NCBI GenBank assembly: GCA_030765065.1
Contig: CM060988.1
Location: 201,250,565 to 201,314,564 of the forward strand
Length of the DNA stretch: 64,000 nucleotides
Origin: Deroplatys truncata
Taxonomy: Eukaryota > Arthropoda > Insecta > Mantodea > Mantidae
Direction of reading: 5' to 3'
Below are positions 9,312 to 27,974 of the stretch, piece by piece (positions within the stretch are counted from its first letter, which is position 1; every line of letters starts with the position of its first letter). The notes under the pieces are model-generated. The model saw only the letters and a list, made by a program, of their open reading frames with translations. It was not told where the DNA came from and searched no databases. Position numbers and translations under genes: made by a program.

Positions 9312-9317
9312 CTTGTC
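9312..9317. repeat. Target site duplication, left (CTTGTC)
   Basis: Six bases CTTGTC directly before the AGTAGGG end of the large element; the same six bases follow its other end at 27969-27974. A 6-bp duplication is the length known for Polintons. Confidence 0.8.
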
Positions 9318-9535
9318 AGTAGGGAAATGGGGTTTCTGGCACAGTTAATTTATGCATGGCTATTCATATGCAAATGAGCTCCCCCACCTCTTCTCCCCCC
9401 GCCTCCTCTCCCCCCACCCCCTGCTACTTGGCATGGGGTTTCTGGCACAGTTAATTTATGCATGGCTATTCATATGCAAATGAGCTCCCCCACCTCCTCC
9501 CTCCCCCACCCCCACCCCCCGCTGTGCCTTGGTAG
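9318..9535 (+). other. Duplicated arm tip with octamer motifs; possible replication origin
   Basis: A tip segment of 106 bp starting at GGGGTTTCTGGCACAG (9329) is repeated from 9435. Each copy has the palindrome-rich TTTATGCATGGC and the octamer ATGCAAAT (9368-9375 and 9474-9481), followed by a C-rich strand-asymmetric stretch. TTGGCA at 9429 resembles an NFI half-site. Adenovirus origins use terminal repeats with NFI and Oct-1 sites; applying that here is inference. Confidence 0.4.
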
Positions 9536-10426
9536 TTTTAGTTGCAGCTGCGGTCGTAAATCATGTTGAGTACAATGGAGGCTTGACAATTAGGTAATTA
9601 AGGCTGTCAATCAACTGTCAAAACGAACAAAGGGGTCATAAATTTAAGGTTCTGTAACAAAGGCGAGATGTTTTTCCTACCCATTCCACATCCGGCCACT
9701 TCTGCACCTGGTCAGTTACCCGCCCCCACTTCCATTGTGTGTCGAACACGTGGCATACTCGTTCCACTAGCTTTTAACAAAAGAACAATGCTTGCCCTTC
9801 AGCTGTCAAAATGAACAAAGCCCATGATGAATTAGGGTTGTAACAAAGCCTGACCCTTTCCATTGTGTAAGAGATTCTATTGTGTGTGCCTTTCTATTGT
9901 CCTTGGCAAGCATTCTTTAGAAAGACCACCTGCAGCGTTCCCATCCCAATAACAAAGCCTGACCCTTTCCATTGTGTAAGAGATTCTATTGTCCTTGGCA
10001 AGGCTAGTTTAGAAAGACACCCGCAGCGTTCCCATTGTTTGGCCACCTGCTAGTTTAACAAAAGAATTCGAGGGTTGCTTTATACTCGTCCTGTCCTTGT
10101 TTGTGTGAAAGAGAGAGAAACTTGTTTACCAACTCTGCGTGACGTCATACTTTAGAAAGACACCTGCTCCATAACAAAGCCTGACCCTTTCCATTGTGTA
10201 AGAGATTCTATTGTGTGTGCCTTTCTATTGTTCTTGGCAAGGCTAGTTTAGAAAGACACCTGCGACGTTTCCATTGTTTGGCCACCTGCTAGTTTAACAA
10301 AAGAATTCGAGGGTTGCTTTATACTCGTCCTCTCCTTGTTTGTGTGAAAGAGAGAGAAACTTGTTTACCAACTCTGCGTGACGTCATAGTCGGCCATCAT
10401 GATTTTGCCTGAGGGAGTTCTCTCCG
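9536..10426 (+). repeat. Arm repeat block with CRE motifs
   Basis: A unit with CCTGACCCTTTCCATTGTG and ACCTGC...CATTGTTTGGCCACC occurs around 9846, 9958 and 10180, and a longer 240-bp unit ending in CTGCGTGACGTCATA is present twice (to about 10149 and 10388). Each long unit has a perfect palindromic CRE/ATF motif TGACGTCA (10140-10147 and 10379-10386) and GCTTTATACTCGTCC upstream. No gene is visible, so an enhancer or promoter role is only inferred. Confidence 0.6.
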
Positions 10427-10554
10427 ATGTTTTACGACCTCCTACGAATATACCCGAGCATAGTTAACAAGCATTCTGTTTCAGCCAACGACTCCGAAAA
10501 AGCGTCTAATATACATTTCATTACGTGCATTAAACCTCTGAGTGATATCCATAG

Positions 10555-12620
10555 ATCGGTGTTCGATTCTTACTGTAATCAAAAGTTTATTGCTAATGAG
10601 AAATTAATGATTGATATTATTATATCATTACCCTAATTAATAAAAAGGCGTTCAGAGAATTCTAGTTCGAGTCTTACCAAGTGAAACTCTAACGCGTAAT
10701 AACTATTAAACTATGCAAGGTCAGATTAAAAAAATGTATTTATCAATTATAATTTAATTTTTTATATATCATTACCCTAATTAATGAAAGGGTGTTCAGA
10801 GGGTTCTAGTTCGAATCTTACCCAACGAAACTCTAATGCTTAATAAATATTAAACTATGCAAGGTCAGATTAAAATGCATTTAACAAATATAATTTAATT
10901 TTTATATATCATTACAATAATTAATAAAAGGGTGTTCAGTGGGTTCTAGATCGAATCTCTAATGCTTAATAAATATTAAACTATGTGAGTATTGCGCGGC
11001 CAGATTAAAACGTGTTTAACGAATATAATTTAATTAATGAAACGGTGTTCAGGGGGATCCTAGATCGAATCTGCGAAACTCTAATGCTTAATAAATATTA
11101 AACTATGCACGACCAGATTAAAATGTGTTTAACAAATATAATTTAATATACACGACATTACAATGTTTAACGATCTGTATTCTTAGGAACCAGAGGTCCA
11201 TAGTTCGAATCCAACCCTGTGAAACGCTATAATAACTATTAAGTTATTGAAGCAGCGGGCGGTCGGATTAAAATTGCATTTAACAACTATAATTATTTAT
11301 ATTAAACCCTGATGCATACTTAGATATCTCGATGCCTAGACAACATTCTTTCTTCTTCTCCTCTCTTTTTCTTTCTATCTATCTCTTTCTTTCTCCACGA
11401 CTTGTACACATTCAGGCGTTCACATATACACGAGCGCTTGTACACACATCAGCAAACATACACTGGTGCACGCATGCAAGCACATACACACACGCACATG
11501 TAAGTACACACACGCAAGCACATACACACACGCATATACATACACCAGCACATACACACACACACATGCACATACATACAACAGTACACACACACACATA
11601 CATACACCAGTACACACACGCATTCACGCACCTCATGCGTATACATACATACACCAGTGCTCTTACACTCACACATTCACGCACCTCATGCGTATACATA
11701 CATACATACACCAGTGCTCTTACACTCACGCCTACATATACATGGACACACACACACGTGCAAGCACATATGCCTGTTCACTTACACCCAACAGCAGCAA
11801 CCCACACACGCACACACCAACTCACGCGCATGTCCTGAATGAAAAGAGACAAAATGATGCAATAAAAACTAATTATAGCTCGGGATGCAAGGCTCCATTT
11901 ACGATTGCTCGAAACCGGTCTTCTAATAACTCCAAAACTAATTAAAATAAAGACAGTAAATAAACTTTATTACTTTTATGCCATTAGCTCGTTTCTTGTG
12001 CATGTATATTAGAGTCCGGGTGTCATGGGTTCGATCCTTAACTTTAAATCTCAATTATCTCAGAAACTAGCAGGGATTAAGGTGCGGCCCAAAGCACGAT
12101 TTTTAGTTCCTACGATGAACAATTAATGCTTTATATAATTTCCAATCAGTGTCCCTAGCTCGAATCCCGATCTTTCAGTGACTTCCTTAATTTTCCACTG
12201 TGTTCTAGAATATATCACTTAGATCAATGTTGCAACTGCATACAGGTCTTTTAAACACATCAAACTAATATTATAAATAATTTTGTTTCTGGCGTTCTGA
12301 GTTCGAATACCGATTCAATGAAGTTTACTTATAAATTTAATAACAGTAAATAATTAAGACAAAGGTACCAAATAAACCTATTACGTTTATGTCATCAGAT
12401 AATATCTTGCGGGTGTATATTAGGGTACCTGACGGCCAGGGTTCGATCCTTAAGTTTAAATCTCAATTATCGCAGAAACTAGCAGAGATAGAGCTGTAGA
12501 CGAAAGCATGTTTGATAGCTCATACAATGAACAATTAATGCTGTATATAATTTTCAATCAGTTGCCCCTAGTTCGAACCCCGATCTTTCAATGACTTCAC
12601 TGATTTTCCTCTGTACTCTG
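10555..12620 (+). repeat. Array of about 140-bp units with tRNA-like box-B motifs
   Basis: A TTCGA-type core like the tRNA T-loop/box B (GGTTCGATCC, AGTTCGAATC) recurs at about 10562, 10666, 10810, 10950, 11064, 11204, 12030, 12159, 12302, 12442 and 12572. Two of the copies read ATCGA instead of TTCGA and one reads CTCGA. Spacing is mostly 129-144 bp. Neighbouring units also share flanking sequence such as CATTACCCTAATTAAT and TAAACTATGCAAGG in the first half. In the second half, pairs of units form a roughly 412-bp period (12030 vs 12442, and 12159 vs 12572). A CA-rich microsatellite interrupts the array. Upstream box-A-like sequence is weak and I could not fold a full cloverleaf, so these are not called tRNA genes. 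Confidence 0.65.
11380..11830 (+). repeat. CA-rich microsatellite inside the left arm
   Basis: Interspersed CA/ACAT/ACGC tandem repeats on the plus strand. Long open frames in all readings (Thr/His-rich or Val/Cys-rich) are by-products of the repeat. Confidence 0.9.
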
Positions 12621-12693
12621 GAATACATCGCTTAGATTGATGCTTTAACTGCATGCAGCTTTGTGTAACGACATTATGGATGTACTCTGTGTG

Positions 12694-12745
12694 AGAGAGA
12701 GCGAGAGAGGGAGAGAGAGAGAGAGAGCGAGAGAGGGAGAGGAAG
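12694..12745 (+). repeat. GA microsatellite
   Basis: Alternating GA run with interruptions about 40 bp upstream of the promoter elements. Its length differs slightly from the mirrored run in the right arm. Confidence 0.9.
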
Positions 12746-12780
12746 TGAAACAAGCAGGGATAGAAGTGCTGAGGGCCTCT

Positions 12781-12925
12781 GCGCATGCGTAGCAAGAGAT
12801 GATGCCATTGGCTGCAATAATCACGTGACGTGTAAGCATCACAGCCATGATGACGTGCAGGCATCGCCTGGAGGGGGTTTAGATCCCTATATAAACAGAC
12901 ATCTGTCCCATGTTAGAACTGTTGT
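12781..12925 (+). promoter_or_regulatory. TATA promoter of the OB-fold-like gene, left arm
   Basis: In order: GCGCATGCG (12781, NRF1-like palindrome), CCATTGGCTG (inverted CCAAT, 12805), CACGTGACGT (E-box overlapping a CRE half, 12822-12831), a second TGACGT at 12851, and a TATA box TATATAAA at 12888-12895. Transcription would start near 12920. The elements and spacing look like a genuine RNA polymerase II promoter. Confidence 0.65.
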
Positions 12926-13019
12926 GTACTTATTAACTTTACATTCAAGTTTTAAAGAGCTTTAAAAGCAACGTGAGCTACAGGCCGTCTACACATTCAG
13001 CACATATCAAAACGGGGCA

Positions 13020-13810
13020 ATGCAAGGTGAGTTTTAAATAACTATACAAAATCACTGTTGGCTTTTACAATACATTTAATTTTATTTAAACGTTACAGTA
13101 CATGAAAGACGATTCGTTACAAAGAGCATCATATTTTCTAATCTGTGCTTTACATTAACATGGATTTCACTGCATACTCTTCTTCAGTTCACATGATTTT
13201 CGCCACACATTCTTCTTACATAAACATTCATACGACTTTCCCCTCATTCTTTGTTTCACTATACACTCACATGATTTCCTCTACTCATTCTTTATTCCAC
13301 CTACAGGTTCATGCTTTGTTAACATTCACATGACTTTCTCTTCACATTCTTTGCTTCCATTAACATTCACATGATTTTCGCCACACCTTCTTCTTACATA
13401 AACATTCATACGACTTTACCCTCATTCTTTGTTTCACTATACACTCACATGATTTCCTCTACTCATTCTTTGTCCCCCTGCAGGTTCATGCTTTGTTAAC
13501 ATTCACACGACGTTCTCAGCTCATTTCTCTATTGACATTCACATGATCTTCTCAACACATTCTTCTTACTTAAACATTCATACGATTTCCCCCCCCCTCA
13601 TTCTTTGTTTCACTATACATTCGCACACGATTTCCTCTACTCATTCTTTGGTTCTCTGCTGGCTCATCTTCAATGAACATTCACATGATTTCTGTACTTA
13701 TTCTTTATTTCTCTACACCCTCATAGGCTTACTTACAAAACATACACACCCTAGTTCTTCAACTTGAATAATGTAGTGAAAATAATAATTCATGACAATG
13801 TCTGTTACAG
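13020..13810 (+). other. Short first exon and candidate intron, left arm
   Basis: Downstream of the TATA box the first ATG in good context (GGGGCAATGC) lies at 13020. It is followed within a few bases by a strong splice donor, AAG/GTGAGT, at 13026/13027. A matching acceptor, TCTGTTACAG, ends at 13810, in phase with the main reading frame. The candidate intron is about 784 bp. The upstream ATG at 13792 could instead be used from an unspliced or downstream-start transcript. Confidence 0.5.
13150..13765 (+). repeat. Pyrimidine-rich tandem repeats in the candidate intron
   Basis: A segment with ACATGATTTTCGCCACAC, CATACGACTTT and TCATTCTTTGTTTCACTATAC repeats at about 13191, 13369 and 13541 (period roughly 172-178 bp). 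Within it the short motif CACATGA[C/T]TTTC recurs, as in CACTCACATGATTTCCTCTA. That motif strongly resembles the terminal motif of family A (ACTCACATGACTTTCTCTAC). Confidence 0.7.
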
Positions 13811-14145
13811 ATTGTTTAGCTGATAGACTTAACAAGATGGTGGAAGAGCGTAGTTTCCTACCGACTCGCCGAGTTCAAGATCTCGAAATAGGTCTTAACT
13901 ATGAGATAAAGTCCTTAAAGAGAGTTCAAACAAGATATGGTACCAGGATCGTATCTTCGCTGGAGGATTGTCAAGTGTTCTTGCCAGAGCGCTATAATTC
14001 GTTAACCGATCAAGAGATTGCAGAAATACCTGGGAGCGTATACCTACAGTATAATGGCATGGCAGAGAAGGGGAAATTTAAGACATGTAAATTGTCTTTT
14101 TTACATGCAAAGAAGGTGCGTAGAAGTGTCAAACTTAAGTATTGA
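13792..14145 (+). CDS. OB-fold-like small protein, left-arm copy
   Basis: The main frame encodes about 117 residues if started at 13792, or slightly fewer if the spliced start is used. The order of a strand-rich core, LNYEIKSLKRVQTRYGTRIV then QVFLPERYNSLTDQEI, resembles a family of small arthropod proteins often found in virus-like elements (pattern K-x-V-x-T-x-Y-G ... VFLP-x-RY). I suspect a single-strand DNA-binding OB fold; this is inference from pattern, not a proven function. The tail is basic (AKKVRRSVKLKY), fitting nucleic-acid binding. A TATA promoter, candidate intron and AATAAA signal at 14178 surround it. The frame looks whole and an identical gene lies inverted in the other arm. 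Confidence 0.55.
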   Translation: MTMSVTDCLADRLNKMVEERSFLPTRRVQDLEIGLNYEIKSLKRVQTRYGTRIVSSLEDCQVFLPERYNSLTDQEIAEIPGSVYLQYNGMAEKGKFKTCKLSFLHAKKVRRSVKLKY

Positions 14146-14177
14146 ATGTTCTCCCATTTCACAATGAAAAATTCATA

Positions 14178-14183
14178 AATAAA
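14178..14183 (+). terminator. Polyadenylation signal AATAAA, left arm
   Basis: AATAAA about 33 bp after the stop of the OB-fold-like gene, followed by an A-rich tract; mirrored at 23098-23103. Confidence 0.5.
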
Positions 14184-14353
14184 ACAACTGACTCATTGAT
14201 ATTACATATAAAGATACAAAAGATGCATATTATAGAATTTTATAAAAAATTAACGAAATTACAATATCACATGCTTGAGTTTAATTATATCTAGCGCATT
14301 GAAATAACTCTAAATATCCGAATGTTTATACAAATCTTTGTGCTTCTTTTTAC

Positions 14354-14542
14354 ATGTGCCATATGCTTCATTTTACATGTATCATAACAAAAAATGTAAT
14401 TCTTTACAGGTTGCCTTTACTTGACCAAGATAGTTTTCTAAGAATTTCATTGTGCAATGTTTCAGGGTGTGCAATAAGAGGAAGAAGAAGAAGAGGAATA
14501 GCCTGCTGGCATGCAAAGGATGCTGACGCTATGGGAGGGTAG
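14354..14542 (+). CDS. Doubtful short Arg-rich reading frame, left arm
   Basis: A 62-codon frame whose second half contains a basic run (RGRRRRG) followed by CWHAKDADAMGG. Two splice-acceptor-like stretches (TTCTTTACAG at 14410 and CAATGTTTCAG at 14465) lie inside it, so the basic part could be a 3' exon. I do not recognise it. The surrounding 14184-15100 shows no other feature that I can support. Confidence 0.2.
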   Translation: MCHMLHFTCIITKNVILYRLPLLDQDSFLRISLCNVSGCAIRGRRRRGIACWHAKDADAMGG

Positions 14543-15349
14543 AATACCTACAAGAAACATTTCGGCAAGAAACGGGTGCTGAGACATCTACATCACCGAA
14601 ACACATTAAGACAGGATCCTTATATAACATTACAGGGTATACAATGAAAAACTACGGTCAATTTTGTATACAATTCAATGCATTGCTGAGAGTTAGCTCG
14701 AACTAGTCTCCCTATATTCAATGAAATTAAGCATTGTGAGCAATAATTTAAGTGACTGTGAAAATACTTTAAGTAATTTGTATCCTAAAAGACTTGAGCC
14801 CTGTATACATTAACAGCATTAAGGCTGTTTGCCACGCTGGAATACAAATTATGAAAATAAAAAGACTTTCATTTAAATAATAAGGAAATTTGCATAACCT
14901 GCTGTTACAAGTGTAATGACATATACAGAAACAATGAGTCGGACGAGAAAGTGATGGAAATGTAAGATAAATAATAACAATAAAAGAATTAAGGTATGCT
15001 TTTACATAGTGTTTTTATTCATTAAAAATCCTTGTATTCCTAATGAAAAATAAATCATTACAATGATTAGTTTAAGTTATATCACAATGATCAAAAAGAG
15101 AACCGTCTTTAGATGCATTACTCGATCTTAAGTCAGAGCACCAAAAAATGACAAATCACGGCTTCTCCATTTTAGATGTGGTGTCACTTTTCAGGTAAAT
15201 TCATGTAACACAACAGGTTGAGTATGCAGATCTGTGGTCCTAAATGGGTGAAACAGAGTCTTATCCAGCTTAACAGTCTTGAGATCTCACCATCAGAAAG
15301 TCGAATCACAAACCTTCTCCACTCGCTGAGCACAGGTTTAACAACAGCA

Positions 15350-15490
15350 TTCTCTTCACCCTGAGACGATGTAAAGTATATAAATGTTCAACTTGACAAG
15401 GGATTCTAAACTCGTTGTTAGAGTCCAGAGCTGATGTATTATATGGTGAAAACACATGTTCCTCTTCTTAGTGATCTTGTCGTCGAATCT
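15350..15490 (-). pseudogene. Capsid-like remnant, left arm (fossil)
   Basis: Mirror of 21797-21937. Short peptide matches (SPYNTSAL, FRIPCQ) resemble the N-terminal region of the jelly-roll capsid proteins of arthropod Polinton-like elements. Broken and very partial; only the family resemblance is claimed. Confidence 0.3.
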
Positions 15491-15514
15491 CGGTAGCATT
15501 GAAGATGCCCATGA

Positions 15515-15748
15515 TTATAGGATTCTGAAGCCCAAAAACTGTAGGAACTGCTGATTGCGTGATGTTAACCTGATGGGCGTCAAGGGCAGAGCATGATGTG
15601 TGCGTCGAATGATTCCATTATTATATCCTCGACGTCGTTGACTTCTTCTAAAAACTATAGGCATTATGCTTATATCCTTGTTTCTAAAGGCAATGATATT
15701 GCTGTTAGGCTCCCCTGTTTGCTCTATGAAGCGGATGTTTATGAACAA
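15515..15748 (-). CDS. Small basic protein of the capsid region, left-arm copy (fossil)
   Basis: Minus-strand frame with a basic patch (RSQRRRG) and the ending LTSRNQQFLQFLGFRIL. Many arthropod virus-like elements have a small protein next to the capsid gene ending in a LT-x-x-N-x-x-FL-x-x-LGF pattern; the match is by eye. It precedes the capsid-like remnant in the same orientation. Probably an incomplete relic rather than a full gene. Confidence 0.4.
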   Translation of the reverse strand: MFINIRFIEQTGEPNSNIIAFRNKDISIMPIVFRRSQRRRGYNNGIIRRTHHALPLTPIRLTSRNQQFLQFLGFRIL

Positions 15749-16023
15749 CAGGTAAAATTTGATTTGATGGTTCCTGTGAAATACGTTATCCAGCCGTAAC
15801 AGATGGGAAAACTGGTAGATGGAGTGTCCACTTTTACTATAGAGGAAGGAGACTGATGCAATACTGCGCTAAATTCGTATGATGCTCAACTTAAATATAT
15901 TCACTAGGAAATCAGATTCAGACAGCTGATTAGATGGAATAACTTTGTCACTGAAGGGTCGCAGAACGTTCCTATAGAACAATCACTGGAAAAAATCAAG
16001 AGTGAAAGGACATTTTAATGACA

Positions 16024-16057
<34 letters not shown>

Positions 16058-16133
16058 CTGATCTAATAAAGAAGACATTCGCATCCTAATATGAGGAATC
16101 TTTCTAACTCTTTCATGGCTTTGCAAATGCTAA

Positions 16134-16706
16134 TCACGCTATAAAACCACCCAGCTTTAAATCCTGAATAATGTCGTTAATCGCATCGGAAAAGTCATTT
16201 TTATCTGTTGTATGAAGCATCATGAGTACCCTTAGCATGTTTACCAAATCATTAGGATTGGTGTAGCGGTATAGCATCTCCTCTGTATTCGCTTTGGATA
16301 TATCTTCTAATCTAGGTGAGTTGTCACTAGTATGCTTGCTTTCATTGGTGTGTTTATTCAGAGCTTGCTCATTCAAAGAAACTGCTCTCATTGCTTCATT
16401 AGTGGTAGCTCTTGATGTTATTACAGGGTCGCTTGAACTGGCTTCAAGCACGGTACATCTTGAATCCCGCTCTTCGGGACTTGAGAAGATTTCAGGATCT
16501 CGTTTGGGTGTTGTAGTCAATGCACAGCTGGTCATTGCTTTACAGCATCTTCTCCTATGTTGTTTAAGCCTTGAAATTGTCCTGTTCTTTAAAGTTCTAT
16601 TACATATGCAGCACTTAACAAAGCGATTACTCCCCCCTTGGGAAACATACGAAAAATCAAGATTCTCGTAAATTGACTGTAATTGACCGTCTTTGTGAGT
16701 GTTCAT
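16134..16706 (-). CDS. BED-type zinc-finger protein
   Basis: An uninterrupted frame of about 190 residues from ATG at 16706. Residues around 28-55 carry C-x2-C ... H-x4-C spacing (VKCCICNRTLKN, then SRLKQHRRRC), typical of BED fingers, which bind DNA. The middle is Ser/Thr-rich and low in complexity. The C-terminal part (NPNDLVNMLRVLMMLHTTD to DLKLGGFIA) looks helical and could mediate oligomerisation. The gene lies in the central unique region just inside the left arm and points towards it. A TATA-like TTTATATATAC lies only about 10-20 bp upstream of the ATG, too close for a normal TATA-driven start at this codon. It could be a captured host or transposon gene, or part of the element's regulatory set. 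Confidence 0.6.
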   Translation of the reverse strand: MNTHKDGQLQSIYENLDFSYVSQGGSNRFVKCCICNRTLKNRTISRLKQHRRRCCKAMTSCALTTTPKRDPEIFSSPEERDSRCTVLEASSSDPVITSRATTNEAMRAVSLNEQALNKHTNESKHTSDNSPRLEDISKANTEEMLYRYTNPNDLVNMLRVLMMLHTTDKNDFSDAINDIIQDLKLGGFIA

Positions 16707-17020
16707 GCTCAAGCAGTATATATAAACTAATCAATGTATACTGTAGATGTTGAATTCGTATACGATAACACGAGACTGAGCTATTTTTTAACATTTATGT
16801 ATTTATATATGTACTCAGGTTTTGATGCATATAAACAGCCATGCCCGAATTAGACTAAGCAAAATATTGTAGCATTCGCACATAATAGTTGTAATTTCGT
16901 TAATTATAACTATCTCATTAAGCACAAGCAGATTCAAGTAGCTAGAAATGGATTCATAGAGGTAAGAGTACAAGTTTTCTTGATAGTTAGCACAGAGAAT
17001 GCGAGAGTTGAGGGAGATAC
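16707..17020. other. AT-rich spacer
   Basis: No gene recognised. Minus-strand reading through this spacer continues a frame out of the minisatellite, but the resulting peptide has no recognisable pattern. Confidence 0.4.
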
Positions 17021-20000
17021 TGGTCATTTTCCCTTTGCAGGTCACCTTTTTTTCCCTTTGCTGGCAACCTTTTTCCCTTTGCTGGTCACATTTTCCCCTT
17101 TGCTGGTCACCTTTTTCCCTTTGCAGGTCACGTTTTTCCCTCTTCTGGTCCCATTTTTCCCTTTACTGATCACCTTTTTCCCTTTGCTGGTCACATTTTT
17201 CCCTTTGCTGGTCACATTTTTCCCTTTGCTGGTAACATTTTTTCCCTTTGCTGGTCACTTTTTCCCTTTGCAGGTCGCATTTTTCCCTTCCCTGGTCACG
17301 TTTTCCCCTTTGCTGGTCACCTTTTTCCCTTTGCTGGTCACCTTTTTCCCTTTGCTGGTCACCTTTTTCCCTTTGCTGGTCACCTTTTTCCCTTTGCTGG
17401 TCACCTTTTTCCCTTTGCAGGTCACGTTTTTCCCTCTTCTGGTCCCATTTTTCCCTTTACTGATCACCTTTTTCCCTTTGCTGGTCACATTTTTCCCTTT
17501 GCTGGTCACATTTTTCCCTTTGCTGGTAACATTTTTTCCCTTTGCTGGTCACTTTTTCCCTTTGCAGGTCGCATTTTTCCCTTCCCTGGTCACGTTTTTC
17601 CCTTTGCTGGTCACCTTTTTCCCTTTGCTGGTCACCTTTTTCCCTTTGCTGGTCACCTTTTTCCCTTTGCTGGTCACCTTTTTCCCTTTGCTGGTCACCT
17701 TTTTCCCTTTGCTGGTCACCTTCTTCCCTTTGCTGGTCACCTTCTTCCCTTTGCTGGTCACCTTCTTCCCTTTGCTGGTCACCTTCTTCCCTTTCCTGGT
17801 CACCTTTTTCCCTTTGCTGGTCACGTTTTTCCCTTTGCTGTTCACCTTTTTCCCTTTGCTGTTCACCTTTTTCCCTTTCCTGGTCACCTTTTTCCCTTTC
17901 CTGGTCACCTTTTTCCCTTTGCTGGTCACGTTTTTCCCTTTCCTGGTCACCTTTTTCCCTTTGCTGGTCACCTTTTTCCCTTTGCTGGTCACCATTTTCC
18001 CTTTGCTGGTCACCTTTTTCCCTTTGCTGGTCACCTTTTTCCCTTTGCTGGTCACCTTTTTCCCTTTGCTGGTCACCTTTTTCCCTTTGCTGGTCACCTT
18101 TTTCCCTTTCCTGGTCACCTTTTTCCCTTTGCTGGTCACCTTTTTCCCTTTCCTGGTCACCTTTTTCCCTTTGCTGGTCACCATTTTCCCTTTGCTGGTC
18201 ACCTTTTTCCCTTTGCTGGTCACCTTTTTCCCTTTGCTGGTCACCTTTTTCCCTTTCATGGTCACCTTTTTCCCTTTCCTGGTCACCTTTTTCCCTTTCC
18301 TGGTCACCTTTATCCCTTTCCTGGTCACCTTTTTCCCTTTGCTGGTCATCTTTTTCCCTTTCCTGGTCACCTTTTTCCCTTTCCTGGTCACCTTTTTCCC
18401 TTTCCTGGTCACCTTTTTCCCTTTCCTGGTCACCTTTTTCCCTTTGCTGGTCACCTTTTGCCCTTTGCTGGTCACCTTTTTCCCTTTGCTGGTCACCTTT
18501 TTCCCTTTGCTGGTCACCTTTTTCCCTTTGCTGGTCACCTTTTTCCCTTTTCTGGTCACATTTTTCCCTTTGCTGGTCACCTTTTTCCCTTTGCTGGTCA
18601 CCTTTTTACCTTTGCTGGTCACCTTTTTACCTTTGCTGGTCACCTTTTTCCCTTTGCTGGTCACCTTTTTCCCTTTGCTGGTCACCTTTTTCCCTTTGCT
18701 GGTCACCTTTTTCCCTTTGCTGGTCACCTTCTTCCCTTTGCTGGTCACCTTTTTCCCTTTCCTGGTCACCTTTTTCCCTTTGCTGGTCACGTTTTTCCCT
18801 TTGCTGTTCACCTTTTTCCCTTTGCTGTTCACCTTTTTCCCTTTCCTGGTCACCTTTTTCCCTTTCCTGGTCACCTTTTTCCCTTTCCTGGTCACCTTTT
18901 TCCCTTTCCTGGTCACCTTTTTCCCTTTGCTGGTCACGTTTTTCCCTTTCCTGGTCACCTTTTTCGCTTTGCTGGTCACCTTTTTCCCTTTGCTGGTCAC
19001 CTTTTTCCCTTTGCTGGTCACCTTTTTCCCTTTGCTGGTCACCTTTTTCCCTTTGCTGGTCACCTTTTTTCCTTTCCTGGTCACCTTTTTCCCTTTGCTG
19101 GTCACCTTTTTCCCTTTGCTGGTCACCTTTTTCCCTTTGCTGGTCACCTTTTTCCCTTTCCTGGTCACCTTTTTCCCTTTGCTGGTCACCTTTTTCCCTT
19201 TGCTGGTCACCATTTTCCCTTTGCTGGTCACCTTTTTCCCTTTGCTGGTCACCTTTTTCCCTTTGCTGGTCACTTTTTCCCTTTGCTGGTCACCTTTTTC
19301 CCTTTCATGGTCACCTTTTTCCCTTTCCTGGTCACCTTTTTCCCTTTCCTGGTCACCTTTTTCCCTTTGCTGGTCATCTTTTTCCCTTTGCTGGTCACCT
19401 TTTTCCCTTTGCTGGTCACCTTTTTCCCTTTCCTGGTCACCTTTTTCCCTTTGCTGGTCACCTTTTTCCCTTTCCTGGTCACCTTTTTCCCTTTGCTGGT
19501 CACCTTTTGCCCTTTCCTGGTCACCTTTTTCCCTTTGCTGGTCACCTTTTTCCCTTTGCTGGTCACCTTTTTCCCTTTGCAGGTCACCTTTTTCCCTTTG
19601 CTGGTCACCTTTTTCCCTTTCCTGGTCACCTTTTTCCCTTTGCTGGTCACCTTTTTCCCTTTGCTGGTCACCTTTTTCCCTTTGCTGGTCACCTTTGTCC
19701 CTTTGCTGGTCACCTTTTTCCCTTTGCTGGTCACCTTTTTCCCTTTGCTGGTCACCTTTTTCCCTTTGCTGGTCACCTTTTCCCCTTTGCTGGTCACCTT
19801 TTTCCCTTTGCTGGTCACCTTTTTCCCTTTCCTGGTACCTTTTTCCCTTTCCTGGTCACCTTTTTCCCTTTGCTGGTCACCTTTTTCCCTTTGCTGGTCA
19901 CCTTTTTCCCTTTCCTGGTCACCTTTTTCCCTTTGCTGGTCACCTTTTTCCCTTTGCTGGTCACCTTTTTCCCTTTCCTGGTCACCTTTTTCCCTTTGCT

Positions 20001-20098
20001 GGTCACCTTTTTCCCTTTGCTGGTCACCTTTTCCCTTTGCTGGTCACCTTTTTCCCTTTGCTGGTCACCTTTTTCCCTTTGCTGGTCACCTTTTCCCT
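17021..20098. repeat. 21-bp minisatellite, about 146 copies
   Basis: Tandem units of CCCTTTGCTGGTCACCTTTTT and close variants (TTCCTGG, TTGCAGG, CACG, CATC). The unit length is exactly 21 bp almost throughout. Higher-order duplications are visible: a marker run with TTGCAGGTCACG and CTTCTGGTCCC repeats after 294 bp (17121 vs 17415), and a run with two CTGTTCACC units repeats after 966 bp (17838 vs 18804). Because 21 is divisible by three, several frames stay open for hundreds of codons; on the minus strand the heptapeptide is KGKKVTS or KGKKVTR. No gene is called. Confidence 0.95.
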
Positions 20099-20387
20099 GA
20101 ATGGGTTACGTAATGGGCATGCCAAGGACATTGACATTAAACAGTTTTCCACTAAGTTCACATCTAAAGTCGTTTTCAAAGTCTAACATATGAATAGGCT
20201 GTGGGCATTCTTGTTTCATCCTCTCTAGCTTGACACCTAAAGTAAAATAAATCGCTCTTAATGTATATACGCTAATGAGAAAGTATAAAAGAACTATCCT
20301 GAATAAAAATCGATTAGTATAACGTGAGAGCTAAGGTGGTTAAGCTCGCAAGAGGTTTCGGTTTAATTAACTCTCTTACTAGCCTGC
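20099..20387 (+). promoter_or_regulatory. Spacer with TATA box before the PLA2/pX region
   Basis: TATAAAA at 20284-20290 within AAGTATAAAAGAAC lies about 100 bp before the first recognisable PLA2-like peptide. An AATAAA lies at about 20246. The rest is unassigned. Confidence 0.4.
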
Positions 20388-20640
20388 AACCATTGAAGTA
20401 CATTTACCTGGTTACATAGGCTGAGGAACTGTGGTAAAGCTAGAGAAAAATTAAAGATAGGAGACCCTGGAATCATTCCGTTAGACGATTCGTGTAATCT
20501 TAGTGGCATTGCCAACGCTCAGCATAAGGTCTCTGCTTCGAGAAACATTGCTGCCAAGATCTGACTGAAACGACTTGGAAAAGCGTGCAATCTGATGTTA
20601 CATTAGGTGAAAAAGTTGGCAGCGTGACTAGTAACAGCAA
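20388..20640 (+). pseudogene. Phospholipase A2-like domain remnant (fossil)
   Basis: Short peptides in the order known for PLA2-like domains of parvovirus VP1 and arthropod virus-like elements: a LPGY segment near 20410, a GDPGIIPLD segment near 20461 and a DVTLGEK segment near 20595, directly before the pX-like frame. In related elements this domain sits upstream of the pX-like part, where it is thought to help the virion cross membranes. It is broken by several changes here. Identification is from the motif order by eye. Confidence 0.5.
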
Positions 20641-20642
20641 TT

Positions 20643-21149
20643 ATGAAGGGAAAGGTAGCTCCAGGTACAGTAACCACGAAGAAGAAACGAGGAGGATTTC
20701 TACCTCTCATACCAATTATTGCAGCTCTAGGCGCTTCTGCTGGAGGTGCAGCCCAAATTGCCTCAGCAGTAAATAAGAAAAAGGCAGCAGATAAACAACT
20801 TGCCGAAATGATGAGGCATAAGAGAGAAATTGAGAGAAAGGTATCTGTTGGCGGAGGGTCCAAAAAGAAGAAACGAGGAGGATTTCTACAGCTCATACCA
20901 ATTATTGCAGCACTAGGAGCCGCCGCTGGAGGAGCATCACAAATTGCTACAGCTGTAAATACGAAAAAAGCTGCGGATAAACAACTTGCTGAAATGATGA
21001 GACGTAACAGAGAAATTGAAGCAAGAGGGAGAGGTTTTCGAGTGAAGAAGAATAAGGGAAGAAACACAGAAACGAAGAGGAGACAGAGCCTGAAAGGGAA
21101 TTCAAAAAACTCTGGCAGGGGGCTATACTTGTCCCGGAAAAAACATTGA
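20643..21149 (+). CDS. pX-like core protein with duplicated module (fossil, frame looks whole)
   Basis: About 168 residues. Residues 13-64 contain a basic stretch, GGFLPLIPIIAALGA (17-31), a GGAAQIASAVN segment and a helical AADKQLAEMM part. Residues 75-126 repeat the same module with few changes (GGFLQLIPIIAALGA at 79-93), a spacing of 62 residues. The glycine-hydrophobic core matches the pattern of the adenovirus pX (mu) C-terminal region and of core-like proteins in Polinton and adintovirus-like elements. The C-terminus SGRGLYLSRKKH fits the G-x-GLYL ending that I associate with the arthropod versions. Expected role: a basic virion core or membrane-active protein. The frame is uninterrupted from ATG at 20643. 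Confidence 0.65.
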   Translation: MKGKVAPGTVTTKKKRGGFLPLIPIIAALGASAGGAAQIASAVNKKKAADKQLAEMMRHKREIERKVSVGGGSKKKKRGGFLQLIPIIAALGAAAGGASQIATAVNTKKAADKQLAEMMRRNREIEARGRGFRVKKNKGRNTETKRRQSLKGNSKNSGRGLYLSRKKH

Positions 21150-21236
21150 GTAACATAGACCTTGACTTGTACGCCCGACGTTTAAAGATTCCTCATATTA
21201 GGATGCGAATGTCTTCTTTATTAGATCAGTGAATAA
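21150..21236 (+). pseudogene. Adenain-like protease trace (fossil)
   Basis: Immediately after the pX-like stop, NIDLDLYARRLKIPHIRM resembles the N-terminal segment that precedes the catalytic part of adenovirus-type cysteine proteases in arthropod elements (pattern D-x-x-x-YA-x-x-LKIP-x-F/I-R). No catalytic region is visible. The trace overlaps the inner edge of the right arm, so part of it is also present at the inner edge of the left arm. Confidence 0.4.
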
Positions 21237-21532
21237 TAATAATAATAATAATAAAAATGTCATTAAAATGTCCTTTCACTCTTGATTTTTTCCAGTGATT
21301 GTTCTATAGGAACGTTCTGCGACCCTTCAGTGACAAAGTTATTCCATCTAATCAGCTGTCTGAATCTGATTTCCTAGTGAATATATTTAAGTTGAGCATC
21401 ATACGAATTTAGCGCAGTATTGCATCAGTCTCCTTCCTCTATAGTAAAAGTGGACACTCCATCTACCAGTTTTCCCATCTGTTACGGCTGGATAACGTAT
21501 TTCACAGGAACCATCAAATCAAATTTTACCTG

Positions 21533-21766
21533 TTGTTCATAAACATCCGCTTCATAGAGCAAACAGGGGAGCCTAACAGCAATATCATTGCCTTTAGAAA
21601 CAAGGATATAAGCATAATGCCTATAGTTTTTAGAAGAAGTCAACGACGTCGAGGATATAATAATGGAATCATTCGACGCACACATCATGCTCTGCCCTTG
21701 ACGCCCATCAGGTTAACATCACGCAATCAGCAGTTCCTACAGTTTTTGGGCTTCAGAATCCTATAA
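21533..21766 (+). CDS. Small basic protein of the capsid region, right-arm copy (fossil)
   Basis: Same protein as the left-arm copy at 15515-15748, with the basic RSQRRRG patch and LTSRNQQFLQFLGF ending. Here it lies in the same orientation as, and downstream of, the pX-like gene. That is the order I associate with related elements, which suggests the right arm keeps the original gene order. Confidence 0.4.
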   Translation: MFINIRFIEQTGEPNSNIIAFRNKDISIMPIVFRRSQRRRGYNNGIIRRTHHALPLTPIRLTSRNQQFLQFLGFRIL

Positions 21767-21796
21767 TCATGGGCATCTTCAATGCTACCGAGATTC

Positions 21797-21937
21797 GACG
21801 ACAAGATCACTAAGAAGAGGAACATGTGTTTTCACCATATAATACATCAGCTCTGGACTCTAACAACGAGTTTAGAATCCCTTGTCAAGTTGAACATTTA
21901 TATACTTTACATCGTCTCAGGGTGAAGAGAATGCTGT
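21797..21937 (+). pseudogene. Capsid-like remnant, right arm (fossil)
   Basis: Peptides SPYNTSAL and FRIPCQ resemble the start of arthropod jelly-roll capsid-type proteins, directly downstream of the LGF-type small protein. Very partial and broken. The rest of the expected capsid gene is not recognisable between here and 22300. Confidence 0.3.
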
Positions 21938-22738
21938 TGTTAAACCTGTGCTCAGCGAGTGGAGAAGGTTTGTGATTCGACTTTCTGATGGTGAGATCTC
22001 AAGACTGTTAAGCTGGATAAGACTCTGTTTCACCCATTTAGGACCACAGATCTGCATACTCAACCTGTTGTGTTACATGAATTTACCTGAATAGTGACAC
22101 CACATCTAAAATGGAGAAGCCGTGATTTGTCATTTTTTGGTGCTCTGACTTAAGATCGAGTAATGCATCTAAAGACGGTTCTCTTTTTGATCATTGTGAT
22201 ATAACTTAAACTAATCATTGTAATGATTTATTTTTCATTAGGAATACAAGGATTTTTAATGAATAAAAACACTATGTAAAAGCATACCTTAATTCTTTTA
22301 TTGTTATTATTTATCTTACATTTCCATCACTTTCTCGTCCGACTCATTGTTTCTGTATATGTCATTACACTTGTAACAGCAGGTTATGCAAATTTCCTTA
22401 TTATTTAAATGAAAGTCTTTTTATTTTCATAATTTGTATTCCAGCGTGGCAAACAGCCCTAATGCTGTTAATGTATACAGGGCTCAACTCTTTTAGGATA
22501 CAAATTACTTAAAGTATTTTCACAGTCACTTAAATTATTGCTCACAATGCTTAATTTCATTGAATATAGGGAGACTAGTTCGAGCTAACTCTCAGCAATG
22601 CATTGAATTGTATACAAAATTGACCGTAGTTTTTCATTGTATACCCTGTAATGTTATATAAGGATCCTGTCTTAATGTGTTTCGGTGATGTAGATGTCTC
22701 AGCACCCGTTTCTTGCCGAAATGTTTCTTGTAGGTATT

Positions 22739-22927
22739 CTACCCTCCCATAGCGTCAGCATCCTTTGCATGCCAGCAGGCTATTCCTCTTCTTCTTCTTC
22801 CTCTTATTGCACACCCTGAAACATTGCACAATGAAATTCTTAGAAAACTATCTTGGTCAAGTAAAGGCAACCTGTAAAGAATTACATTTTTTGTTATGAT
22901 ACATGTAAAATGAAGCATATGGCACAT
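22739..22927 (-). CDS. Doubtful short Arg-rich reading frame, right arm
   Basis: Mirror of 14354-14542, with the same RGRRRRG run. Not recognised; may be a 3' exon or nothing. The surrounding 22300-23095 has no other supported feature. Confidence 0.2.
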   Translation of the reverse strand: MCHMLHFTCIITKNVILYRLPLLDQDSFLRISLCNVSGCAIRGRRRRGIACWHAKDADAMGG

Positions 22928-23097
22928 GTAAAAAGAAGCACAAAGATTTGTATAAACATTCGGATATTTAGAGTTATTTCAATGCGCTAGATATAATTAA
23001 ACTCAAGCATGTGATATTGTAATTTCGTTAATTTTTTATAAAATTCTATAATATGCATCTTTTGTATCTTTATATGTAATATCAATGAGTCAGTTGT

Positions 23098-23103
23098 TTT
23101 ATT
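23098..23103 (-). terminator. Polyadenylation signal, right arm
   Basis: AATAAA on the minus strand just downstream of the right-arm OB-fold-like gene. Confidence 0.5.
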
Positions 23104-23135
23104 TATGAATTTTTCATTGTGAAATGGGAGAACAT

Positions 23136-23489
23136 TCAATACTTAAGTTTGACACTTCTACGCACCTTCTTTGCATGTAAAAAAGACAATTTACATGTCT
23201 TAAATTTCCCCTTCTCTGCCATGCCATTATACTGTAGGTATACGCTCCCAGGTATTTCTGCAATCTCTTGATCGGTTAACGAATTATAGCGCTCTGGCAA
23301 GAACACTTGACAATCCTCCAGCGAAGATACGATCCTGGTACCATATCTTGTTTGAACTCTCTTTAAGGACTTTATCTCATAGTTAAGACCTATTTCGAGA
23401 TCTTGAACTCGGCGAGTCGGTAGGAAACTACGCTCTTCCACCATCTTGTTAAGTCTATCAGCTAAACAATCTGTAACAGACATTGTCAT
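23136..23489 (-). CDS. OB-fold-like small protein, right-arm copy
   Basis: Same protein as at 13792-14145, inverted; the translated product is identical over its full length. The pattern KRVQTRYGTRIV ... QVFLPERY and the basic tail suggest a nucleic-acid-binding OB-like protein, by inference only. Carrying the gene in both arms gives two divergently placed copies, each with its own promoter, candidate intron and polyadenylation signal. Confidence 0.55.
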   Translation of the reverse strand: MTMSVTDCLADRLNKMVEERSFLPTRRVQDLEIGLNYEIKSLKRVQTRYGTRIVSSLEDCQVFLPERYNSLTDQEIAEIPGSVYLQYNGMAEKGKFKTCKLSFLHAKKVRRSVKLKY

Positions 23490-24261
23490 GAATTATTATT
23501 TTCACTACATTATTCAAGTTGAAGAACTAGGGTGTGTATGTTTTGTAAGTAAGCCTATGAGGGTGTAGAGAAATAAAGAATAAGTACAGAAATCATGTGA
23601 ATGTTCATTGAAGATGAGCCAGCAGAGAACCAAAGAATGAGTAGAGGAAATCGTGTGCGAATGTATAGTGAAACAAAGAATGAGGGGGGGGGGAATCGTA
23701 TGAATGTTTAAGTAAGAAGAATGTGTTGAGAAGATCATGTGAATGTCAATAGAGAAATGAGCTGAGAACGTCGTGTGAATGTTAACAAAGCATGAACCTG
23801 CAGGGGGACAAAGAATGAGTAGAGGAAATCATGTGAGTGTATAGTGAAACAAAGAATGAGGGTAAAGTCGTATGAATGTTTATGTAAGAAGAAGGTGTGG
23901 CGAAAATCATGTGAATGTTAATGGAAGCAAAGAATGTGAAGAGAAAGTCATGTGAATGTTAACAAAGCATGAACCTGTAGGTGGAATAAAGAATGAGTAG
24001 AGGAAATCATGTGAGTGTATAGTGAAACAAAGAATGAGGGGAAAGTCGTATGAATGTTTATGTAAGAAGAATGTGTGGCGAAAATCATGTGAACTGAAGA
24101 AGAGTATGCAGTGAAATCCATGTTAATGTAAAGCACAGATTAGAAAATATGATGCTCTTTGTAACGAATCGTCTTTCATGTACTGTAACGTTTAAATAAA
24201 ATTAAATGTATTGTAAAAGCCAACAGTGATTTTGTATAGTTATTTAAAACTCACCTTGCAT
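23479..24261 (-). other. First exon and candidate intron, right arm
   Basis: Mirror of the left arrangement: ATG at 24261 on the minus strand, donor just after 24255, and acceptor CTGTTACAG next to the main frame near 23471-23480. Confidence 0.5.
23516..24131 (-). repeat. Tandem repeats in the candidate intron, right arm
   Basis: Mirror of the pyrimidine-rich repeats of the left arm; on the plus strand seen as GAAATCATGTGAGTG and GAAAGTCATGTGAATG units. The poly-C/G run near 23688 is one base longer than in the left arm. Confidence 0.7.
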
Positions 24262-24364
24262 TGCCCCGTTTTGATATGTGCTGAATGTGTAGACGGCCTG
24301 TAGCTCACGTTGCTTTTAAAGCTCTTTAAAACTTGAATGTAAAGTTAATAAGTACACAACAGTT

Positions 24365-24505
24365 CTAACATGGGACAGATGTCTGTTTATATAGGGATCT
24401 AAACCCCCTCCAGGCGATGCCTGCACGTCATCATGGCTGTGATGCTTACACGTCACGTGATTATTGCAGCCAATGGCATCATCTCTTGCTACGCATGCGC
24501 AGAGG
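24365..24505 (-). promoter_or_regulatory. TATA promoter of the OB-fold-like gene, right arm
   Basis: Minus-strand copy of the NRF1-like palindrome (around 24491-24500), inverted CCAAT, CACGTGACGT and TATATAAA (around 24386-24393). Confidence 0.6.
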
Positions 24506-24541
24506 CCCTCAGCACTTCTATCCCTGCTTGTTTCACTTCCT

Positions 24542-24592
24542 CTCCCTCTCTCGCTCTCTCTCTCTCTCCCTCTCTCGCTCTCTCTCACACAG
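24542..24592. repeat. GA/CT microsatellite, right arm
   Basis: Mirror of 12694-12745, slightly different length. Confidence 0.85.
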
Positions 24593-24659
24593 AGTACATC
24601 CATAATGTCGTTACACAAAGCTGCATGCAGTTAAAGCATCAATCTAAGCGATGTATTCC

Positions 24660-26735
24660 AGAGTACAGAGGAAAATCAGTGAAGTCATTGAAAGATCGGG
24701 GTTCGAACTAGGGGCAACTGATTGAAAATTATATACAGCATTAATTGTTCATTGTATGAGCTATCAAACATGCTTTCGTCTACAGCTCTATCTCTGCTAG
24801 TTTCTGCGATAATTGAGATTTAAACTTAAGGATCGAACCCTGGCCGTCAGGTACCCTAATATACACCCGCAAGATATTATCTGATGACATAAACGTAATA
24901 GGTTTATTTGGTACCTTTGTCTTAATTATTTACTGTTATTAAATTTATAAGTAAACTTCATTGAATCGGTATTCGAACTCAGAACGCCAGAAACAAAATT
25001 ATTTATAATATTAGTTTGATGTGTTTAAAAGACCTGTATGCAGTTGCAACATTGATCTAAGTGATATATTCTAGAACACAGTGGAAAATTAAGGAAGTCA
25101 CTGAAAGATCGGGATTCGAGCTAGGGACACTGATTGGAAATTATATAAAGCATTAATTGTTCATCGTAGGAACTAAAAATCGTGCTTTGGGCCGCACCAT
25201 AATCCCTGCTAGTTTCTGAGATAATTGAGATTTAAAGTTAAGGATCGAACCCATGACACCCGGACTCTAATATACATGCACAAGAAACGAGCTAATGGCA
25301 TAAAAGTAATAAAGTTTATTTACTGTCTTTATTTTAATTAGTTTTGGAGTTATTAGAAGACCGGTTTCGAGCAATCGTAAATGGAGCCTTGCATCCCGAG
25401 CTATAATTAGTTTTTATTGCATCATTTTGTCTCTTTTCATTCAGGACATGCGCGTGAGTTGGTGTGTGCGTGTGTGGGTTGCTGCTGTTGGGTGTAAGTG
25501 AACAGGCATATGTGCTTGCACGTGTGTGTGTGTGTGTCCATGTATATGTAGGCGTGAGTGTAAGAGCACTGGTGTATGTATGTATGTATACGCATGAGGT
25601 GCGTGAATGTGTGAGTGTAAGAGCACTGGTGTATGTATGTATACGCATGAGGTGCGTGAATGCGTGTGTGTACTGGTGTATGTATGTGTGTGTGTGTACT
25701 GTTGTATGTATGTGCATGTGTGTGTGTATGTGCTGGTGTATGTATATGCGTGTGTGTATGTGCTTGCGTGTGTGTACTTACATGTGCGTGTGTGTATGTG
25801 CTTGCATGCGTGCACCAGTGTATGTTTGCTGATGTGTGTACAAGCGCTCGTGTATATGTGAACGCCTGAATGTGTACAAGTCGTGGAGAAAGAAAGAGAT
25901 AGATAGAAAGAAAAAGAGAGGAGAAGAAGAAAGAATGTTGTCTAGGCATCGAGATATCTAAGTATGCATCAGGGTTTAATATAAATAATTATAGTTGTTA
26001 AATGCAATTTTAATCCGACCGCCCGCTGCTTCAATAACTTAATAGTTATTATAGCGTTTCACAGGGTTGGATTCGAACTATGGACCTCTGGTTCCTAAGA
26101 ATACAGATCGTTAAACATTGTAATGTCGTGTATATTAAATTATATTTGTTAAACACATTTTAATCTGGTCGTGCATAGTTTAATATTTATTAAGCATTAG
26201 AGTTTCGCAGATTCGATCTAGGATCCCCCTGAACACCGTTTCATTAATTAAATTATATTCGTTAAACACGTTTTAATCTGGCCGCGCAATACTCACATAG
26301 TTTAATATTTATTAAGCATTAGAGATTCGATCTAGAACCCACTGAACACCCTTTTATTAATTATTGTAATGATATATAAAAATTAAATTATATTTGTTAA
26401 ATGCATTTTAATCTGACCTTGCATAGTTTAATATTTATTAAGCATTAGAGTTTCGTTGGGTAAGATTCGAACTAGAACCCTCTGAACACCCTTTCATTAA
26501 TTAGGGTAATGATATATAAAAAATTAAATTATAATTGATAAATACATTTTTTTAATCTGACCTTGCATAGTTTAATAGTTATTACGCGTTAGAGTTTCAC
26601 TTGGTAAGACTCGAACTAGAATTCTCTGAACGCCTTTTTATTAATTAGGGTAATGATATAATAATATCAATCATTAATTTCTCATTAGCAATAAACTTTT
26701 GATTACAGTAAGAATCGAACACCGATCTATGGATA
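24660..26735 (-). repeat. Box-B-like array, right arm
   Basis: Inverted copy of the array at 10555-12620, with GATTCGAAC and GGATCGAACCC cores visible on the plus strand at matching intervals. Confidence 0.65.
25450..25900. repeat. TG-rich microsatellite, right arm
   Basis: Mirror of the CA-rich block of the left arm, with small length changes. Confidence 0.9.
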
Positions 26736-26859
26736 TCACTCAGAGGTTTAATGCACGTAATGAAATGTATATTAGACGCTTTTTCGGAGTCGTTGGCTGA
26801 AACAGAATGCTTGTTAACTATGCTCGGGTATATTCGTAGGAGGTCGTAAAACATCGGAG

Positions 26860-27751
26860 AGAACTCCCTCAGGCAAAATCATGATGGCCGACTATGACGT
26901 CACGCAGAGTTGGTAAACAAGTTTCTCTCTCTTTCACACAAACAAGGAGAGGACGAGTATAAAGCAACCCTCGAATTCTTTTGTTAAACTAGCAGGTGGC
27001 CAAACAATGGAAACGTCGCAGGTGTCTTTCTAAACTAGCCTTGCCAAGAACAATAGAAAGGCACACACAATAGAATCTCTTACACAATGGAAAGGGTCAG
27101 GCTTTGTTATGGAGCAGGTGTCTTTCTAAAGTATGACGTCACGCAGAGTTGGTAAACAAGTTTCTCTCTCTTTCACACAAACAAGGACAGGACGAGTATA
27201 AAGCAACCCTCGAATTCTTTTGTTAAACTAGCAGGTGGCCAAACAATGGGAACGCTGCGGGTGTCTTTCTAAACTAGCCTTGCCAAGGACAATAGAATCT
27301 CTTACACAATGGAAAGGGTCAGGCTTTGTTATTGGGATGGGAACGCTGCAGGTGGTCTTTCTAAAGAATGCTTGCCAAGGACAATAGAAAGGCACACACA
27401 ATAGAATCTCTTACACAATGGAAAGGGTCAGGCTTTGTTACAACCCTAATTCATCATGGGCTTTGTTCATTTTGACAGCTGAAGGGCAAGCATTGTTCTT
27501 TTGTTAAAAGCTAGTGGAACGAGTATGCCACGTGTTCGACACACACAATGGAAGTGGGGGCGGGTAACTGACCAGGTGCAGAAGTGGCCGGATGTGGAAT
27601 GGGTAGGAAAAACATCTCGCCTTTGTTACAGAACCTTAAATTTATGACCCCTTTGTTCGTTTTGACAGTTGATTGACAGCCTTAATTACCTAATTGTCAA
27701 GCCTCCATTGTACTCAACATGATTTACGACCGCAGCTGCAACTAAAACTAC
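26860..27751 (-). repeat. Arm repeat block with CRE motifs, right arm
   Basis: Mirror of 9536-10426. TGACGTCA lies at 26895-26902 and 27134-27141. Confidence 0.6.
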
Positions 27752-27968
27752 CAAGGCACAGCGGGGGGTGGGGGTGGGGGAGGGAGGAGGTGGGGGAGCT
27801 CATTTGCATATGAATAGCCATGCATAAATTAACTGTGCCAGAAACCCCATGCCAAGTAGCAGGGGGTGGGGGGAGAGGAGGCGGGGGGAGAAGAGGTGGG
27901 GGAGCTCATTTGCATATGAATAGCCATGCATAAATTAACTGTGCCAGAAACCCCATTTCCCTACTACT
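27752..27968 (-). other. Duplicated arm tip with octamer motifs, right arm
   Basis: Mirror of the left tip. ATTTGCAT lies at 27802-27809 and 27908-27915. The terminal bases CCCTACTACT contain two ACT triplets where the left tip has one. Confidence 0.4.
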
Positions 27969-27974
27969 CTTGTC
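27969..27974. repeat. Target site duplication, right (CTTGTC)
   Basis: Matches 9312-9317 exactly and directly follows the last base of the right arm. Confidence 0.8.

Follow-up and report, generated by a model that had tools for sequence, protein, structure and literature searches.

What kind of mobile element is built as a giant palindrome, and how do its two halves stay alike? The question is raised by an 18,651-bp element at positions 9318–27968 (18.65 kb) of a 64-kb stretch of contig CM060988.1 of the mantis Deroplatys truncata (GenBank GCA_030765065.1), which was analysed as a whole and is called the window below. The answer that we favour, and consider fairly probable, is that the element is a young copy of a non-autonomous, Polinton-like family ("satellite Polintons") with 6.8-kb terminal repeats, moved in trans and of fold-back origin. 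The ends, the duplication length, the size and a pX gene place the family with the Polintons, and it is regarded as non-autonomous because neither a polymerase nor an integrase gene was found in it. The replication of Polintons has been deduced mostly from their genes. Giant co-evolving arms and re-folded isomers would be traces left in the genome by linear replication, by pairing of the arms in a panhandle and by copying after fold-back, and such traces make the replication steps testable by sequence comparison; thus, the anatomy described below may record how the family replicates.

Palindromic structure and termini

The palindrome is real. The left arm (9318–16103, plus strand, 6,786 bp) and the right arm (21184–27968, minus strand, 6,785 bp) form a giant terminal inverted repeat around a centre at 16104–21183, and differ by five substitutions and five small internal indel runs (blastn identity 99.7%), with an extra AGT present once, at the right end relative to the left. 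The inner boundary of the left arm recurs in sister copies, and the right arm is defined by both the arm alignment and the sister copies. The rest of the window has no blastn match to the arm or the centre at 1e-5, and an Rfam scan of the window yielded no matches. The near-identical inverted arms of about 6.8 kb around a central part, described in the initial annotation, are therefore borne out by the arm alignment, which together with the sister copies also supports its claim that the terminal repeats were enlarged to include genes.

According to the flank comparison, the element is enclosed by the target-site duplication CTTGTC, its left copy at 9312–9317 and its right copy at 27969–27974. 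The left terminus (9318–9323, plus strand) consists of a single AGT unit followed by AGG, the end reading 5'-AGTAGGG, and the right terminus (27963–27968, minus strand) of two AGT units (5'-AGTAGT), the end reading 5'-AGTAGTAGGG. Near each terminus lies a 106-bp tandem repeat, at 9327–9520 (plus strand) with perfect octamers ATGCAAAT at 9368 and 9474, and at 27763–27956 (minus strand) with the octamers at 27802 and 27908.

The 6-bp duplication, the AGT start and the octamer recur in other copies. A perfect 6-bp duplication flanks all 13 copies resolved at both ends, namely, the window copy, ten fetched end pairs, a right-right isomer (L014, CATGTG) and one left-left isomer (L063, CACATT); a second left-left candidate on C1, the right end of which was not found in L062, stands outside the 13. 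All 33 end records, representing 29 distinct ends, start with AGT, consistent with the 5'-AG ends and inverted repeats of Polintons, and in all 33 the octamer lies 51–59 bases from the end, a position kept also in subfamilies that differ over the outermost 30 bases. However, the octamer is over-frequent throughout the window (13 occurrences against 3.9 expected from base composition), and only four of the 13 are near the element ends. The layout would resemble that of the adenovirus origin, which has an Oct-1 site and a doubled terminal triplet. Both the 6-bp duplication and the Polinton-type ends had been noted from the window alone, and the element boundaries placed there are upheld by the duplication, the arm/centre junctions of sister copies and the end pairs.

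The family in the host genome

Searches of the host assembly (4.29 Gb, 818 contigs) go beyond the initial annotation in revealing a many-copy family, concerted evolution of the arms and the existence of re-folded isomers. Exact matches to the right-junction 35-mer number 237, as against none for its reversed-pattern control, and the left-junction 34-mer, with one mismatch allowed, has 377 (control, 0); these numbers count junctions, not strictly copies. The 34-mer represents the commoner form of the left junction, and its first letter is the mismatch in the places listed; the window's own left-junction 35-mer has only four matches, because it contains a base common to just one of 20 sampled copies (L018). 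A search with the pX protein produced at least 150 places (the best 150 of 5,025 first-look candidates). The same genome searched with the Adeno_PX family gave no match from 150 scored candidates and blanks in 14 controls, a result that is uninformative, as the window protein itself matches the model.

In 20 stretches sampled around high-scoring pX genes, arm sequence flanks the centre on both sides in every case. The arm boundary on the pX side is displaced by no more than 1 bp in 18 of them (the others being L023 with a small shift and L028 with a deletion), and the other boundary on the same base or at most 3 bp away in 19, the exception being the isomer L014; the arms of L026 and L028, both damaged copies, are interrupted. 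End pairs of the window subfamily are 15.5–19.5 kb apart in 12 cases out of 13 and 6.7 kb apart in one, and a diverged subfamily has 15 end pairs spanning 8.9–25.6 kb. Hence, many other copies exist, and in most of the sampled ones the arm/centre boundaries agree with those of the window copy. The 6.7-kb end pair (G000:C1:290205868-290212537) is perhaps a deletion form. Same-strand right-junction motifs were also observed at G000:C6:221604363, 221609843 and 221615321, about 5.48 kb apart, as would result from tandem amplification of part of an element.

Within a copy, the arms evolve in concert. In a tree based on 1.9 kb of the inner arm from 19 copies (the window copy and 18 of the 20 sampled ones, with L026 and L028 dropped), the left and right arms of the same copy are sisters in 17 cases, with support of at least 0.79 in 16 of these and 0.085 in L009. 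The arms of one copy differ by 0.05–1.97%; in 15 of the 19 copies, no other sampled arm comes as close to the left arm as its own partner does. Similarly, the first ten terminal bases are equal at both ends in nine copies out of 13, and several copies carry private changes common to both their ends. Such concerted arms imply that one arm was corrected by the other, or both were made from one, repeatedly in the family history, and the arms of each copy may act as a built-in clock for its insertion.

Two copies have been re-folded. L014 is a right-right isomer with the minisatellite, pX and the arm on both sides, so that it has two pX genes; 4.1 kb of its fetched middle form an inverted repeat (96.8%) that takes in pX together with roughly 1 kb of minisatellite, and the join lies about 33–34 bp inside the lost arm, this being the sole remnant of that arm there. 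L063 is a left-left isomer in which the arm and 707 bp from the left part of the centre occur on both sides; its inverted repeat is 95.8% identical in the fetched part, and about 20 bp of the lost arm are left at the join. In both isomers the break is thus some tens of bases into the arm, and a 3' end that stopped inside the arm, folded back and copied its own far end would yield exactly these types of products. Judging by the sequences of these two cases, fold-back copying may operate in the family, and the founding palindrome may have arisen by the same route from a short-repeat ancestor, although no such ancestor was found.

Coding capacity and candidate helpers

The pX-like gene at 20643–21149 (plus strand) encodes an internally duplicated protein of 168 amino acids (aa) and stops about 35 bp short of the right arm. 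Its match to the Pfam family Adeno_PX (E-value 6.2e-09; 36 bits at a cut-off of 25) confirms the assignment made in the initial annotation. Among the 150 pX places listed, which are ranked by protein score, 16 contain a stop and about 134 do not. Protein-changing (N) differences in pX are fewer than under a rough neutral expectation relative to silent (S) ones (30 N : 25 S, expected N 38.6, p = 0.010 uncorrected); the same deficit is seen in the pX antisense frame (43:31, p = 0.018) and in an open reading frame (ORF) of no known kin (20:15, p = 0.038).

The remainder of the centre comprises a 190-aa ORF on its left side (16134–16706, minus strand) and a 21-bp minisatellite (17027–20098, about 146 units), the length of which differs between copies. 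The ORF contains a stretch resembling a BED finger that stays below the Pfam cut-off (16.3 bits against 20.6). Very long ORFs at 17027–20098 exist because the period of the minisatellite is divisible by three; as long frames are open on both strands, genes inside the minisatellite were rejected. The left arm contains a 117-aa ORF (13792–14145, plus strand) without a family match, its right-arm copy in the ORF list being at 23136–23489 (minus strand); in sampled copies, 21 full-length matches to this ORF include none with a stop and two with a frameshift. By the N:S test, the BED-like and 117-aa ORFs look neutral, with no signal of selection. A 49-aa reading at 15515–15664, considered as a known Polinton motif, was dropped, its shared changes being 5 N : 0 S.

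Of eight element ORFs scanned with Pfam, pX alone reached the cut-off, and a further scan of 54 ORF pieces (of 72 listed) gave five weak matches, the best being Atrophin-1 (E-value 0.0039), and no Polinton family. Neither PolB nor a retroviral-type integrase (rve) had a Pfam match in these 8 + 54 pieces, and no ORF of PolB length exists outside the minisatellite, the longest stop-to-stop ORF being 198 aa, the minisatellite and a 201-aa simple-repeat ORF aside. Likewise, Pfam gave no match to capsid proteins, for which it may miss divergent members, a packaging ATPase or a protease, and no transposase match among the element ORFs scanned. These results support the earlier view of a non-autonomous derivative, for no replication or integration gene was found in the element, and lend no support to the "other virus-like fragments" reported alongside pX. 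Searches in other collections added little: IMG/VR gave nine pattern matches for the 117-aa protein and two for pX, none of them confirmed; the 117-aa protein had no match in phage records; and neither protein matched PDB sequences. Only weak matches came from PHROGs, the best one (phrog_1350, holin, E-value 6.8e-05, for the repetitive pX) being judged unrelated, and structure prediction for the 117-aa protein was uninformative (mean pLDDT 40.6).

The host genome does contain genes for suitable machinery. A search of the genome for PolB gave at least 152 matches from the best 76 of 11,882 first-look candidates, the longest open frames reaching 1,350 aa. Of ten ORFs beside PolB genes, two have rve together with a chromodomain, one has dUTPase, and seven have nothing. 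One end was mapped for a PolB lineage: 39 other scored matches start at query positions 800–812, with AGTAGT at 812, and the terminal sequence is otherwise unlike that of the palindrome. In this autonomous-looking lineage, the AGTAGT terminus (L055:812-905) is followed about 40–50 bases in by TGACGTCA, which we take to be an ATF/CREB-type palindrome. The pieces compared from four PolB lineages have no convincing sequence in common with the element.

Replication, alternatives and known systems

Under the satellite Polinton explanation, an autonomous Polinton would supply the polymerase and the integrase in trans, and protein-primed strand displacement, starting at the AGT-repeat ends, would copy a linear molecule that is then inserted with 6-bp duplications. 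The displaced strand could anneal its own two arms, forming a panhandle in which one arm can correct the other, and a strand with its 3' end stopping near the arm/centre border could fold back and copy the far end, so that a palindrome would be made or enlarged. This suggests that Polintons carry satellites with a structural gene of their own, as viruses do.

A bolder version, which is possible but which we put forward tentatively, describes the family as a satellite-virus-like lineage with self-correcting panhandle arms, re-founding by fold-back, its own pX, a packageable length and an adenovirus-like origin. Panhandle arms would keep both ends and the genes alike at each replication round, and the lineage would be re-founded by fold-back from either end, giving the left-left and right-right isomers. 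The pX core protein and the length of 15–20 kb would be kept for packaging in helper capsids, with the minisatellite perhaps serving as padding toward the full length, and the ends would act as an origin, their AGT repeats and fixed octamer site being laid out as in adenoviruses.

Several observations weigh against the satellite Polinton explanation. No helper was identified via the PolB lineages: eight 5-kb PolB-side pieces from the four lineages yielded no more than one 26-bp stretch (E-value 4e-4) and one weak protein match (E-value 0.004), and the 79 listed end places are all more than 25 kb away from the 72 listed PolB places, both lists consisting of top hits. The arms of L012 and L013 are not sister pairs, L009 is a sister pair only with its support of 0.085, and in four of the 19 copies (L009, L012, L013, and L021) the arms are no closer to each other than to the nearest relative. 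End pairs both shorter and longer than the standard exist, and sampling by high pX score leads to under-representation of forms lacking pX. Finally, the isomers could also have been made by copying after insertion, with the duplications untouched, and the arms may have been homogenised by gene conversion after insertion instead.

The last point leads to the alternative that the long arms are an old, fixed trait of the family and that chromosomal gene conversion after insertion maintains their similarity, with no linear protein-primed cycle. Gene conversion between long inverted repeats does occur in chromosomes, and concerted arms fit either place of homogenisation; however, strong conversion would make the arms of old copies as alike as those of young ones, whereas the observed differences spread from 0.05% to 1.97%, and the AGT-repeat ends, the 6-bp duplications and the presence of pX are signs of a Polinton cycle. 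We therefore consider this alternative improbable, though worth keeping in mind. A separate fold-back-type transposon superfamily, resembling Polintons at the ends only, is distinctly unlikely: the plan of the element, a short centre between long arms that contain tandem repeats, is reminiscent of Foldback and Galileo, and one AGTAGT end aside there is no convincing sequence in common with the four PolB lineages, but the 6-bp duplication, the AGT ends, the spacing of 15–20 kb in 12 of 13 end pairs and the adenovirus-type pX all argue for Polintons.

Even less likely, in our opinion, is that the element is a decayed immobile remnant whose copies arose by chromosomal duplication. It would fit the lack of any polymerase or integrase gene found in the element and the three tandem right junctions about 5.48 kb apart on C6, but only five substitutions separate the two arms in the window copy, and a site-specific 6-bp duplication at each of the 13 copies resolved at both ends indicates separate insertions. 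As for an assembly or library artefact, i.e., a false inverted duplication, such duplications are a known assembly error, and arms with blastn identity of 99.7% might raise the suspicion; yet the palindrome stops exactly at the 6-bp duplication and the same junctions recur hundreds of times across many contigs, which leads us to reject this explanation as having hardly any chance of being correct. Moreover, arms flank the centre on both sides in 20 of 20 sampled copies, and they differ within copies, several pairs having shared changes of their own.

Polintons are characterised by 6-bp duplications, 5'-AG ends and a characteristic size, and their terminal repeats usually measure from a few hundred bases to about 1 kb. 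The element has these duplications, ends and size. Non-autonomous Polinton derivatives have the same kind of ends and lack replication genes; in contrast to small deletion forms, the element is full-size and palindromic, with a mostly stop-free pX. In adenovirus 12 SYREC and other defective genomes, a linear, protein-primed genome carries the same viral end twice, once on each side, and is thereby a palindrome; these genomes are cell-culture by-products, whereas the element, which resembles a symmetric defective adenovirus genome turned into a lasting, high-copy lineage, belongs to a genomic family with hundreds of junction matches. Foldback and Galileo likewise combine a short centre with long inverted arms that include tandem repeats, but they have a P-type transposase and 7–9 bp duplications, while the element has 6-bp duplications and no transposase match. 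Poxviruses likewise possess terminal repeats of several kb, but they are viruses of another class with much larger genomes and covalently closed ends.

Among poxviruses, terminal repeats of 8.4 kb have been described in an entomopoxvirus (PMC8363768, excerpt) and expanded ones in an MVA isolate (PMC11680203, excerpt). Teratorn, a virus-transposon hybrid, has long inverted repeats around a unique region as well, but it is a herpesvirus combined with piggyBac and is 41–182 kb long (PMC6431247, excerpt). According to the same excerpt, Polintons/Mavericks carry PolB and a DDE integrase (PMC6431247), while in the element no PolB, integrase or capsid gene was found and the 6.8-kb repeats hold genes. 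Adintoviruses are kin of adenoviruses and Polintons, and the pX of the element is adenovirus-like; however, they are defined by PolB with an OTU-like domain and a hexon, and have an rve-chromodomain integrase (PMC11071296, excerpt), whereas Pfam scans of the element gave no PolB or rve match, no separate test for hexon being made. Thus, of the initial interpretation as a Polinton/adintovirus-like element, the Polinton-type ends, the non-autonomy and the enlarged repeats hold, while the adintovirus label, like the virus-like fragments, is not supported. In literature searches covering open-access full texts, we recognised no description of a palindromic or giant-repeat Polinton.

Other features of the window include a mariner-type ORF at 8182–8751 adjoining the element (Pfam HTH_48, E-value 6.5e-06), to which the ORFs at 34272–35063, 42459–42917, and 61466–61984 look similar by eye only. 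A PIF1-like helicase fragment at 37449–38240 (Pfam E-value 2.3e-27) is presumably a Helitron remnant. The region 32000–32800 has a strong purine skew, and a 76-bp tandem repeat occupies 56274–59751 (about 46 copies, 91% matches).

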